Positions 24,537-28,466 of a DNA stretch of 45,567 nt are shown here, piece after piece (position 1 is the stretch's first letter; each line of letters opens with the position of its first letter). The stretch covers positions 1-45,567 of the forward strand of contig NZ_CABHXX010000032.1 of NCBI RefSeq assembly GCF_902170565.1. The letters are read 5' to 3'. The notes under the pieces were generated by a model. The model was not told the origin of the DNA. It worked only from the letters and a program-made list of their open reading frames with translations, and did no database searches. Position numbers and translations under genes: made by a program. The DNA is from Yersinia thracica (lineage in GTDB: Bacteria > Pseudomonadota > Gammaproteobacteria > Enterobacterales > Enterobacteriaceae).

Positions 24537-24980
24537 GTGGTGGTGGAAAGATTACAAACCAATCTGGACCAGCAGCTGGAACTGCTTGAATCCCTGAAAA
24601 CTGTCGTAGCGCAAGAACAGCAATTACTGTGCTCCGGTCGGATTCAAGGCAGGGTGCTGCAAGGTGTCACTGAACAAAAAAGTTCAATTTTGGCGACCTT
24701 GGCTTATCTGGATCAGACCCGGCTCACCACCGAAAAAACGAGCAATATTCAAGCGCCGTACAGCAGCGTGCATGAGTTAGCCGTCCGCTGGCAACGTATA
24801 TTGGCGCTGGCCGAAGCGCTGCGCTACAGCAACCTGCATAATGGGCTATTACTGCAACAGCATATTGAGCATAACACTCAGGCGCTGGCTGTTTTGAACA
24901 CACGCCACGGCCAGACACTGTATGGGCCTGATGGTCACTCTAAAGGCGCCAGTTTGCTGGGCCGCAAGATTGGTATTTAG
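24537..24980 (+). CDS. flgN: Flagellar export chaperone FlgN
   Basis: FlgN is the cytoplasmic chaperone that delivers FlgK and FlgL to the export gate. The 147-residue protein (E. coli 138) is helical with the conserved VTEQKSSILATLAYLDQ segment (about 44-60) and the tail TLYGPDGHSKGASLLGRKIG. Three in-frame GTG codons lie side by side (24537, 24540, 24543) after AAGGATAG; which is used is unclear. Its stop is 2 bp from the inv stop, so the two genes converge with no room for a terminator. Confidence 0.94.
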   Translation: MVVERLQTNLDQQLELLESLKTVVAQEQQLLCSGRIQGRVLQGVTEQKSSILATLAYLDQTRLTTEKTSNIQAPYSSVHELAVRWQRILALAEALRYSNLHNGLLLQQHIEHNTQALAVLNTRHGQTLYGPDGHSKGASLLGRKIGI

Positions 24981-24982
24981 CC

Positions 24983-27529
24983 CTATTGCGGTGCCGCGCA
25001 AAGTGGATACGCCGATGACACCGATATTGCCTGCAATGCGCCGCTAGTCATATCCATGGCGACAAAATCTGTACTGGTCTTTTTAGTCCAATAGTTGCCC
25101 GATGGCCATTCAGAGCTATCATAGGTTGTCAAACTCCCCCACTCTCCCCATAGCGTCCCGTCAGCTGCGCGCGAGCCATTAGTGGTGCGCGAGGATTCAA
25201 TCAGTGCCGTCATATCTGTAGCTTGGCAGATTCTGCTGGCTTGAATATCTGTTTTCAGCGACTGACCGCCAGAATATACCCACAGATTAGGTTTGAACCG
25301 ATAGGTTGCGGTATAGCTCGGGAACTTTTTACTCTTTGCTGTCACCTTAACGGTGCTGCCATAGGTTTGATAGACAATATTGACCTTACCCTGATTATCC
25401 ACCGCCACGTTGGGCATATATGATGACGTCCAGTCATACTGAGTATTATTCGCCACATTACCATTCATCACCAATTGGAAGGTGGCTTTATTAAAGATTG
25501 TTTTCGGGAAATCTTTATCCGTCGCGAAATTTTCCCCATTGACCGAAATAGCGGTTATTTCAGGCACTGGATCGAGTGTTATTTTTCTCTGTAACCCACT
25601 CTGTTCCGTGGTGCCAATTTTAGGTGTGATAGTGACATCCCCAGCTGTATTTCCGGTCACAGTCGCGGTATAGCTGTCTGGCTGCTCGCTAATGGCACTG
25701 ATATTTACCGCAATTCCACTTTGGATGAAACTAAGATCCTTGATACCACTGATAAAATCATTATTTTTATTATGCGGTACAAATGTAAGAGTAGAGCTCA
25801 TGGTGCCATCAGCCACAATTTCGGATGCGGAAACAGTAAAGCTTGAGTGAGCAGTATCTAGGGTCGAATCTACTGCAAACTGAACATCAACACTCTGCTG
25901 TTGCCCCTCGATATCCAAGGTGACCACAGACACACCCGCAGTCATGTTGGTTAATGCAATACTCGCAGTACCCTTCCCATCAGTTTTTTCCGTGACTTCG
26001 CTAGGGAGTGCGCCATTACTGGTTGTAATGACAACTTCTTGCCCTACCACTGGCGCATTATCAAGATTGGCAACAGTAAATTCAACGGTGATCGCGGTGC
26101 TACCATCAGCCGGTGCACCATCACCTGTCACCGTCGATGTGACAATAAACTGAGGTTGCTGAACAATAGCGGTCAATGTTGATGGGTTAGAGCTATTTCC
26201 ATCACCATCGACCGCCGTCGCGCTGATGTTATAGGTGTTGGCCGCCAGTTCGGTCTCATTACTCACTCCAGTGGCCCGGCTTGCGGATGCCACGCGTCGA
26301 TAAACAGGCAAAACCACACTATAATTCATTGTATCTATGAGGATTATTTTGCCGCCAGCGGCAACTAGCTCAGTATCATTCCAGATAATGCGTTTTGCTG
26401 CATATTGATTCTGTACGCGCGCACTAACTTGATAAACCTGGCCCGGCTGGCCAGAGAGCACCGCTGGAGATAATGCCAGTTTGAACATATTCTGTTTCTG
26501 GTACTCCAGCACAATATTAGCATTACGCTCGACAAGATTATAACGACTCTCAGCAAGCAAACGCGTCCCGGCGACCTGCGAGGGGCTAAACTGCGAGCGA
26601 AAGCTCTCTCCGAAACGATAATCTATTTGTAAGTTCCACTGGGTTTCATGCTGATGACTTTTCCCCATGCGCTGTTCAACCCCGAGAGTTAATAAAGGTA
26701 TCGGCGTATAATTAAGCCCGGCAGTAAACGCATAAGGGTTGCTTTGCAGATTATCTTTTCCAAACAAAGCGACTCGTTCACCCGTATATTGTTCATAGAT
26801 TAACTTCCCCCCCAATTGAGGAAGTGTTGGTAAATAAGCTTTGACGCGTAAGTCGCCACCTGCAGCAGGTCGCTCATTATAATGGGCGAAATCTCGGGAC
26901 GGGTGCCACCCATTAAGACGAAAATAACCATTAGCTGATAGTTGCAAATAGTCAGCCCAAGCCTCAACACCAAAACCAAGACGGTGATTATGTCCCGTCA
27001 AATCATTATCATAGAAAGTATTCAGCCCATACAGCCATTTTTCCTGCAACGTACGAACTCCTGCACCGATATTAAGTGTATTTCGGCTGTCTTTATTTCT
27101 AATGCCTAACTGACTAAAAAAGAGATATGAATCGGAGTCATACCAAGGGAGAAGCCAGTCAAGAGAGCTTTCGTTAAGAGAGAATTTTTTGTCAAAGTTA
27201 ACATTAACTTGAGCAGTACCAAACTTAGCTAGCCAATGTTTTATTTCTTGATTTGCCGCATCATTCGCCATTGAACGTGCGATATCAGATGCCCTGCCAG
27301 ATGATGCCAGTTTTGCTCCAGTATTTAACATCTTATAGGCGACTTCATCATGGTGTGGCAAGGTCTCAAATTCTTCTGAATTAAAATAATAAGGCTCATT
27401 CATTGGTATTCCATTAATACTATTTTGCCGTGAAAGCCCAGGGGTAAATATGTCAAATATCAAACTAACTAATATTATTGTCTTAGTGATAACATTAGAA
27501 ACAGTTAGCTTATTAATAAACACATACAT
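24983..27529 (-). CDS. inv: Invasin (inverse autotransporter adhesin)
   Basis: Invasin is the Yersinia outer membrane adhesin that binds host beta1 integrins and promotes uptake. The 848-residue protein resembles the roughly 835-residue Y. enterocolitica form, not the longer (about 985) Y. pseudotuberculosis form, so it probably lacks domain D2. Order: hydrophobic signal segment (about 13-30), inverse autotransporter beta-barrel (about 105-345, with SSLDWLLPWYDSDSYLFFSQ), bacterial Ig-like domains (about 415-740) and a C-terminal lectin-like domain. Cys768 and Cys844 are spaced as the known disulfide, and Asp772 (CQATD) matches the integrin-critical aspartate. The ATG at 27529 follows GAGGG. 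The first 100 residues look divergent from the Y. enterocolitica sequence I recall. Integrin binding is inferred, not shown. Confidence 0.93.
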   Translation of the reverse strand: MYVFINKLTVSNVITKTIILVSLIFDIFTPGLSRQNSINGIPMNEPYYFNSEEFETLPHHDEVAYKMLNTGAKLASSGRASDIARSMANDAANQEIKHWLAKFGTAQVNVNFDKKFSLNESSLDWLLPWYDSDSYLFFSQLGIRNKDSRNTLNIGAGVRTLQEKWLYGLNTFYDNDLTGHNHRLGFGVEAWADYLQLSANGYFRLNGWHPSRDFAHYNERPAAGGDLRVKAYLPTLPQLGGKLIYEQYTGERVALFGKDNLQSNPYAFTAGLNYTPIPLLTLGVEQRMGKSHQHETQWNLQIDYRFGESFRSQFSPSQVAGTRLLAESRYNLVERNANIVLEYQKQNMFKLALSPAVLSGQPGQVYQVSARVQNQYAAKRIIWNDTELVAAGGKIILIDTMNYSVVLPVYRRVASASRATGVSNETELAANTYNISATAVDGDGNSSNPSTLTAIVQQPQFIVTSTVTGDGAPADGSTAITVEFTVANLDNAPVVGQEVVITTSNGALPSEVTEKTDGKGTASIALTNMTAGVSVVTLDIEGQQQSVDVQFAVDSTLDTAHSSFTVSASEIVADGTMSSTLTFVPHNKNNDFISGIKDLSFIQSGIAVNISAISEQPDSYTATVTGNTAGDVTITPKIGTTEQSGLQRKITLDPVPEITAISVNGENFATDKDFPKTIFNKATFQLVMNGNVANNTQYDWTSSYMPNVAVDNQGKVNIVYQTYGSTVKVTAKSKKFPSYTATYRFKPNLWVYSGGQSLKTDIQASRICQATDMTALIESSRTTNGSRAADGTLWGEWGSLTTYDSSEWPSGNYWTKKTSTDFVAMDMTSGALQAISVSSAYPLCAAPQ

Positions 27530-27891
27530 TGACAACCCTCCCGGATTAATACCAACTCAATAATATTCATTAAAAAGACAATAGAGAACCAACAGTAAAC
27601 ACGGCAACCTCAAAATAAAATTCGAATATCACTTCCATTCCTTAAAAAGATAATTAATAGAGTAGCAGAAATTATAAAAGCTCAACTAAAAATCACGCAG
27701 CAATTAAAATATAAATTAAATAACATTCAATATATTATTTATCATCCTATTTAAATTAAATATTAATATATTCAGCGATGTTTTTATCAAAATAACTTAC
27801 GCCATATTGATAAAATAATATCGTCTCATTTTTAGCAATACGATACTCTGGCGTGACTAGGTAAATACTGGCCTAGTTTAAAGGAGGAAAT
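27530..27891. promoter_or_regulatory. A+T-rich region between inv and a small secreted-peptide gene
   Basis: This 362-bp divergent gap is strikingly A+T-rich compared with the flagellar genes on each side. In other yersiniae the inv promoter is silenced by H-NS and activated by RovA, which bind A+T-rich DNA, so the composition fits. I did not find a convincing single -35/-10 pair. An ACTAGG/CCTAGT inverted repeat (27856-27877) sits just before the Shine-Dalgarno of the plus-strand small gene. Confidence 0.6.
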
Positions 27892-28047
27892 ATGGAAAAA
27901 CAGCGTGTAAGTTTATTATTTAGCTTGGTTTTTGTCGGCGTTATGGCGATGTCTGCACATTCAACAGCCCAAGCCAGGGAGATCAATAGCAGGCCACCCC
28001 ATCCAATTCCGATATGCTACGGCTGCTTTTCCCCAATAGGATTTTAG
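27892..28047 (+). CDS. Small secreted peptide of unknown function
   Basis: I do not recognise this gene. It encodes 51 residues with a textbook Shine-Dalgarno (AAGGAGG, five bases before the ATG). The sequence starts MEKQRVSLLFSLVFVGVMAM, a typical Sec signal, and an AxA-type cleavage site (STAQA) falls at about 28. The predicted mature part is about 23 residues, Pro-rich (RPPHPIPI), with two cysteines as CYGC and the tail FSPIGF. It is divergent from inv across A+T-rich DNA and converges on flhE, overlapping its stop by 4 bases. An exported disulfide-bonded peptide is inferred. It might instead be a leader peptide or a decaying gene, but the signal and ribosome site argue for translation. 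Confidence 0.65.
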   Translation: MEKQRVSLLFSLVFVGVMAMSAHSTAQAREINSRPPHPIPICYGCFSPIGF

Positions 28048-28466
28048 CGATAATTCACCAGCACTTGGTTACTAATGACTTGCAGCGGCGGATTTACTCG
28101 CCCTTTACCTGCAATAAAGTAAACAAAAGTCAGTTGAGTCGCAGCCGCTTCCCCCGCCAACCCGCGGCTTTGCCCGCTGCCGCCTTCAAGAGGCATACAG
28201 CGGGTCGGCGTACACAACTGAACTTGTAAACCATCCGGTGCTGCCGACATTAATTGGTAGCGCCAACCTACTGACACAATCCGCGCATTTTCTTGAGCCA
28301 GTGCAACCGGTGATTGCAGCGGTTTGGCGGAAATAGCTACTCCGCGAAAACTCTGTGTAATGCCAATATCATCGGCCACCCACGTCCCTGAAGCAGCTGC
28401 ATTCAATGGCACTATTGCGAACGAAAGCACACTGCCCAGAATCACGGGAAAAAGACGAGTTAGCAT
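28044..28466 (-). CDS. flhE: Flagellar protein FlhE
   Basis: FlhE is a small periplasmic protein of enterobacteria that prevents proton leakage through the export gate and influences swarming. The 140-residue protein has a signal peptide (about 1-25, ending NAAAS or nearby) and a compact periplasmic domain with two cysteines (QLCTPTRC, about 83-90). The ATG overlaps the flhA stop by one base. Its stop lies inside the last codons of the convergent small-peptide gene. Confidence 0.93.
   Translation of the reverse strand: MLTRLFPVILGSVLSFAIVPLNAAASGTWVADDIGITQSFRGVAISAKPLQSPVALAQENARIVSVGWRYQLMSAAPDGLQVQLCTPTRCMPLEGGSGQSRGLAGEAAATQLTFVYFIAGKGRVNPPLQVISNQVLVNYR

Follow-up and report, generated by a model that had tools for sequence, protein, structure and literature searches.

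Positions 27892-28047 of the analysed Yersinia thracica DNA hold a real gene that is kept by selection in most species of the genus that were searched. We state this with high confidence because the reading frame is conserved and open in 21 of 25 genus genomes and is under purifying selection. The likely explanation is an authentic gene, restricted to the genus, that encodes an exported mini-protein; its mRNA would be led by a hairpin, and its product would be exported by the Sec system, form a disulfide and act at the envelope or on the flagellum side. Its distribution contradicts a general role in invasin function. The features of the locus are given below, where the window is the whole stretch of DNA that was analysed (45,567 nucleotides) and positions are those of the window unless another locus is named.

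27892..28047, plus strand: mini-protein gene, 51 codons, ATG at 27892, TAG at 28045-28047; homologues in 21/25 genus genomes
27892..27975, plus strand: predicted signal sequence, residues 1-28 (MEKQ...AQA), with an n-region of charge +1, a hydrophobic core and AxA at residues 26-28
27976..28044, plus strand: predicted mature peptide of 23 residues, following the putative cleavage site
28015..28026, plus strand: CYGC cysteine pair (C42, C45); C42 invariant in 21/21 members, CxxC in 18/21, CC in 3/21
27880..27887, plus strand: Shine-Dalgarno sequence AAAGGAGG, clear in most homologues; in L008 and L018-L021 it is weaker or its spacing differs
27855..27878, plus strand: 5' stem-loop with an 8-bp stem, 27855-27862 / 27871-27878; 97.6% of 168 cells paired
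27844..27849, plus strand: putative -10-like box TACTCT; TANTCT in 18/21 (TAATGT in L005 and L007, none in L020)
27780..27836, strand not applicable: upstream element common to genomes with inv or an inv remnant, probably part of the inv cassette
28044..28466, minus strand: flhE, convergent neighbour (PF06366, E=9.2e-31)
24983..27535, minus strand: inv (inverse autotransporter / invasin), divergent, inconstant neighbour (PF11924, E=3.2e-94)
24537..24980, plus strand: flgN (PF05130, E=5.7e-26), next upstream gene in the 15 carriers without intact inv

The mini-gene is conserved and under purifying selection

Homologues were identified by profile search, every one of them beside flhE. They encode 47-66 residues, of which M1, L9, C42 and P48 are invariant in the 21-member alignment. 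All 21 frames are open, with no internal stops. When dN/dS was estimated from Nei-Gojobori counts, all 142 of 210 pairs that gave a finite estimate lay below 1 (median 0.25; the remaining 68 pairs gave none), and among the 30 pairs with the lowest dN the 29 computable ones ranged from 0.07 to 0.48. Eight close pairs (395 codons) carried 46, 29 and 81 substitutions at codon positions 1, 2 and 3, respectively. The first-pass annotation of this DNA had proposed a gene here, and the comparison bears this out: the substitutions are mostly synonymous, with the third codon position changed most. The signs that it had named as speaking against a gene, frameshifts or stop codons and loss of the cysteines, are seen in none of the 21 homologues, which all keep an open frame and two cysteines. 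In the longest family member, L008 (66 aa, positions 1447-1644 of its locus, minus strand), the tail is extended and the ribosome site weak, and this member may be drifting.

The mini-gene is absent from four genus genomes (G001, G006, G009 and G012), and flhE is present in all four. In a tree of flhA and flhE, which was built from fragments, rooted on a single outgroup and has four inner nodes with support below 0.8, three of the non-carriers stand on a branch of their own, and a single gain plus a single loss, the latter in G006, would account for the tree.

We also asked how readily such a frame arises by chance. Signal-like features (a positive n-region, a hydrophobic core and AxA) occur in 2 of the 191 window ORFs of 40-75 aa, and the mini-gene alone combines them with a Shine-Dalgarno sequence. 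Thirty dinucleotide shuffles of the window gave on average 0.03 ORFs with all features, and 1.67 when the Shine-Dalgarno sequence was left out; the criteria were chosen after the finding was known. The ribosome site, which had been called near-ideal, is indeed strong (AAAGGAGG) and is kept in most members.

The product is very probably a tiny exported peptide with two cysteines

The window protein begins with MEKQ (n-region charge +1), followed by a hydrophobic core (best 10-residue KD 2.84) and AQA, and its predicted mature part, REINSRPPHPIPICYGCFSPIGF, contains two cysteines. An n-region charge of at least +1 and a best 10-residue KD of at least 2.18 were found in 21/21 members. The triplet at the expected cleavage place (residues 23-28) is AxA in 11 members, VxA in 7, and AQS, AQG or TQA in the other 3. 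Thus the sequence has the marks of Sec export, namely a positive n-region, a hydrophobic core and small residues at -3 and -1. Two cysteines lie downstream of the core in every member, as CxxC in 18 and as CC in the clade formed by L009, L011 and L013. A tryptophan occurs after the invariant proline in 18 members, and the trio to which the window protein belongs ends in PIGF. In many members a cysteine within the core comes after F; the window protein is without it. The lipobox consensus is [LVI][ASTVI][GAS]C, and no cysteine stands at the cleavage site in the 21-member alignment, which argues against a lipoprotein.

Judged from these sequence features, the product is very probably a tiny exported two-cysteine peptide; probably it is disulfide-bonded, about 20-25 residues long, and active either in the periplasm or extracellularly. 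The signal peptide with an AxA site that had been described before can be recognised in the window protein, and its n-region and core recur in all 21 members, as does the pair of mature cysteines. The description of the mature part as proline-rich holds for the subclade of the window and its near kin, but not for the family, where the only invariant proline is P48, which follows the cysteines.

A small inner-membrane protein, with an uncleaved hydrophobic anchor and a cysteine tail in the periplasm, would likewise show a hydrophobic core in 21/21 members, and strict AxA at the expected place in only 11/21 would suit it. However, small residues fit for signal peptidase I are kept there in all members, mostly as AxA or VxA, and we consider such an anchor unlikely.

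An exported peptide might instead act on other cells, as a pheromone-like signal or a small bacteriocin-like molecule released through the outer membrane. The size, the signal sequence and the short aromatic mature part are consistent with this, as is the faster change of the mature part (median dN/dS 0.36 in 111 computable pairs, 3 of them at 1 or above) compared with the signal part (0.25 in 149 pairs, all below 1). Phr-type secreted peptides (TIGR04429) are also made as a short pre-peptide with a signal sequence, but only 2/21 members touch the Phr model, and only weakly (best E=0.069). The cut-offs of Phr and PhrA are not reached, the PhrA score of L010 being 13.8 bits against 40. Moreover, every ORF of at least 90 aa in the surrounding 1.5 kb or so is either a flagellar gene or inv, and phages and plasmids yielded no relative at E 0.1; when one member was compared with plasmids at E 10, a single match (E=7) appeared. 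An action on other cells has, in our judgement, only a modest chance of being correct.

A conserved hairpin precedes the ribosome site

The inverted repeat that had been noticed upstream of the gene is real, and its stem ends one nucleotide before the ribosome site. In 21 sequences, 4 of the 8 pairs showed changes on both sides. The outermost pair holds all 4 unpaired cells; the other pairs comprise 128 Watson-Crick, 19 G-U and 0 mismatched cells. The covariation score and the share of paired cells were reached by 0/500 shuffles, and slid controls scored far lower, with the structure being derived from the same alignment that was scored and kinship among sequences inflating such scores. Two of the five measures were weak: the number of pairs with both-side changes was reached by 23/500 shuffles and the pair types by 140/500. 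By fold energy alone, the 5' region is unremarkable (z -0.30). We also considered the inverted repeat as a DNA operator and rejected this, since 19 G-U cells and no mismatches in the inner pairs fit RNA pairing better than a protein-binding palindrome.

The mRNA probably starts at the hairpin, with transcription beginning at the foot of the stem, because in the window the TANTCT box (present in 18/21 members) sits 5 nt before it. A consensus promoter scan gave 0 matches. No FliA-type promoter was found either, the best matches having 5-7 mismatches of 16, compared with 5-8 in a reversed-sequence control. With a model of the leader, no credible second copy was found in the genome of the window, a second match (E=5) being taken as chance. 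The same model was run against ten flhE loci without the mini-gene (4 from the genus and 6 from 5 other genomes) and gave one weak match (L037, E=2.5), with none in the 4 genus loci.

Given the covarying hairpin, the conserved entity could be an RNA, either dual-function or antisense to the tail of flhBAE, with the ORF being secondary. The mini-gene and flhE lie tail to tail: their ORFs overlap by 4 nt in the window, and across the 21 carriers the arrangement ranges from a 14 nt overlap to an 18 nt gap. As no terminator-like site was found in window positions 27500-28100, the two transcripts may overlap, which would also suit an RNA. Nevertheless, the third-position bias, the open frames and dN/dS values well below 1 show that the protein is selected, and the hairpin occupies an ordinary 5' leader position. 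We regard an RNA with a secondary ORF as very unlikely.

The flagellar genes are constant neighbours and inv is not

In the window, the genes of this neighbourhood include flgA, flgM, flgN, inv, the mini-gene, flhE, flhA and flhB. The mini-gene and inv, whose ORF begins at 27535 on the minus strand, are divergent and separated by an AT-rich gap of 356 nt; this layout, together with the overlap with the end of flhE, agrees with the first-pass annotation. A general link to inv, as first drawn from this layout, is not supported. All 21 carriers have flhE on one side, which gives the mini-gene a constant place in the flagellar cluster, but inv is found at the locus in only 6. The other 15 lack an intact inv and have flgM-flgN upstream. 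In one of these, L006, a broken 3' remnant of inv lies between flgN and the mini-gene (945-1206 of that locus, two tblastn pieces). Conversely, in G006 inv and flhE are about 0.8 kb apart, yet the mini-gene is absent.

The upstream DNA was compared in five pairs of relatives of which one has an intact inv and the other does not (L001/L002, L001/L003, L005/L007, L015/L016 and L015/L014), and also in L006/L004. Within 80 nt of the ATG on its upstream side these pairs were 55-100% identical, and farther out 15-60%. Where sisters agree in inv state, the similarity beyond 80 nt was higher than in these pairs. L001 and L015, which are more distant and both carry inv, showed 76-95% identity at 61-140 nt (95, 95, 76 and 78) and lower values nearer in and beyond. 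Because the proximal 80 nt follow the species and the DNA further out differs with the inv state, inv looks like a passenger with its edge near the -35 region of the mini-gene, which stays put.

At window positions 24980-27835, inv sits as a cassette that is bounded on one side by the stop of flgN, 2 nt away from its own stop, and on the other by a point about 60-80 nt upstream of the mini-gene. Since sister genomes differ in this cassette and more distant inv-bearing genomes have the same adjoining element, an exchange of the whole cassette between genomes is suggested. A near-palindrome, TTTTATCAAAAT..ATATTGATAAAA, lies at window positions 27782-27815; the seven genomes with inv or a remnant largely keep its left arm and ATAAAATA, but its symmetry does not persist in all of them. 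It may serve in the regulation of inv or of both genes.

A gene that is co-regulated with inv (H-NS/RovA) and serves adhesion would explain the divergent arrangement over the AT-rich gap and the upstream element shared by inv-bearing genomes. Against it stand the 15 carriers without intact inv, the inv-positive genome without the mini-gene, and the proximal 80 nt that track the species across inv-positive and inv-negative sisters. The mini-protein is not in general an invasin partner, and an invasin-linked function is highly improbable.

Searches beyond the genus gave no credible relative

Searches of Pfam, NCBIfam, PHROGs and PDB sequences, and of Rfam with the whole window at the gathering threshold, returned nothing credible, so that the mini-protein is still as unrecognised as it had been called at first. 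Weak matches, each in one member, were obtained in NCBIfam (TraU 0.0019, TorF porin 0.015, Lar 0.018, HPE1-like CxxC 0.02 and PhrA 0.05), in Pfam (EmrE 0.041, SNAPC3 0.051, DsbD_2 0.06, DUF7828 0.062, POPLD 0.074 and UL124 0.078) and in PHROGs (phrog_27004 0.012 and phrog_10867 0.096), and one PDB chain was matched at E 0.98. No toxin family was among the Pfam matches of the 21 members at E 0.1, which speaks against a type I toxin of the Hok kind. Among 60 relatives, the best match outside the genus had an E value of 0.05. When 295 family-level genomes were searched, 19 had a match at E 0.05 or below, of which 3 were genus members and 16 were partial, at E 0.003 or worse. The single match in a named genome, a Phycisphaerae contig, covered 18 residues and was taken as chance, in a search that may omit near relatives. 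The family thus appears to be restricted to the genus.

FlhE (PF06366) is also a protein of the flagellar region with a signal-like start of its own; however, it has 140 aa and is encoded on the opposite strand, and the mini-protein does not match its model. The amino-terminus of TraU (NF010297, PF06834) likewise has a signal sequence and a short stretch followed by CxxCxxP, but the TraU models span 306-330 positions and belong to conjugation systems, and the mini-protein ends right after the motif, far below the cut-off. We give hardly any credence to a detached copy or mimic of this amino-terminus (signal, then P..D[IV]CWxCxFP) that engages periplasmic disulfide helpers or a secretion channel: residues 6-53 of L008 match NF010297 at E=0.0019, and the motif aligns when the family profile is set against 10 TraU N-termini, in which ..DVCWxCxFP-like motifs come after a signal sequence (local probability 81, global 32), but only 1/21 members matches, with 17.2 bits against a cut-off of 298, the compared TraU rows were picked by the motif (10/12 loci), which biases the comparison, none of nine mature parts tested alone matches an NCBIfam model and only one of the nine gave a Pfam match (DUF7828, E=0.072), and the genome of the window has no TraU match. 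We did not accept the lead and attribute it to a shared short motif.

Among the papers listed for Yersinia, flhE and inv in searches of freely available literature, no title or abstract opening points to a gene between inv and flhE. An RNA-seq study of Y. enterocolitica places its lists of start sites and sRNAs in supplements and names deposited start-site data (GEO GSE119404) (PMC6478967); passages of this paper do not mention the mini-gene. The invA promoter has been described (PMC3131269), and passages of that paper do not mention the mini-gene either. Small unannotated Salmonella proteins known from ribosome profiling (PMC5345727) are likewise encoded by short genes missed in annotation; the mini-protein family differs in being found in one genus only.

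Proposed mode of action

The reading that we favour, an exported mini-protein acting on the envelope or flagellum side, would work as follows. The gene would be transcribed from its own promoter, starting at the foot of the hairpin, which would cap and stabilise the short mRNA and leave the ribosome site open. The product would be exported by Sec and cut by signal peptidase I after about residue 26-28. DsbA would then close the cysteine pair, giving a peptide of 20-25 residues that contains a small ring and, for the majority of members, ends in an aromatic tail. The site of action would be the periplasm or the immediate surroundings of the cell, and the most plausible role is that of a small modulator on the envelope or flagellum side, because flagellar genes are the constant neighbours of the mini-gene. 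The modulator role is the weakest step of this mechanism.

The four genus genomes without the mini-gene keep flhE and at least the observed part of flhA, and the mini-protein is therefore not an essential flagellar part; the lack of any flagellar-type promoter match likewise counts against the modulator role. A more specific version, in which a disulfide-ringed flagellar or envelope accessory peptide of 20-25 residues, translated from a hairpin-capped mRNA within the flagellar cluster, tunes a periplasmic flagellar step in this one genus, for example by way of FlhE or through the oxidation of FlgI (P-ring), seems to us doubtful.

Significance

The mini-gene adds a well-supported family of exported mini-proteins that none of Pfam, NCBIfam, PHROGs or the PDB sequences covers, and the obvious reading of it as invasin-associated is now corrected. 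Sister genomes also differ at this locus in whether inv lies between flgN and the mini-gene, which itself stays in place. The small size of the mini-protein, its constant flagellar place and its retained cysteine pair make a direct test easy. Within the literature searched it is undescribed; it is ordinary in kind, and stands out by how well it is conserved and by its fixed position among the flagellar genes.
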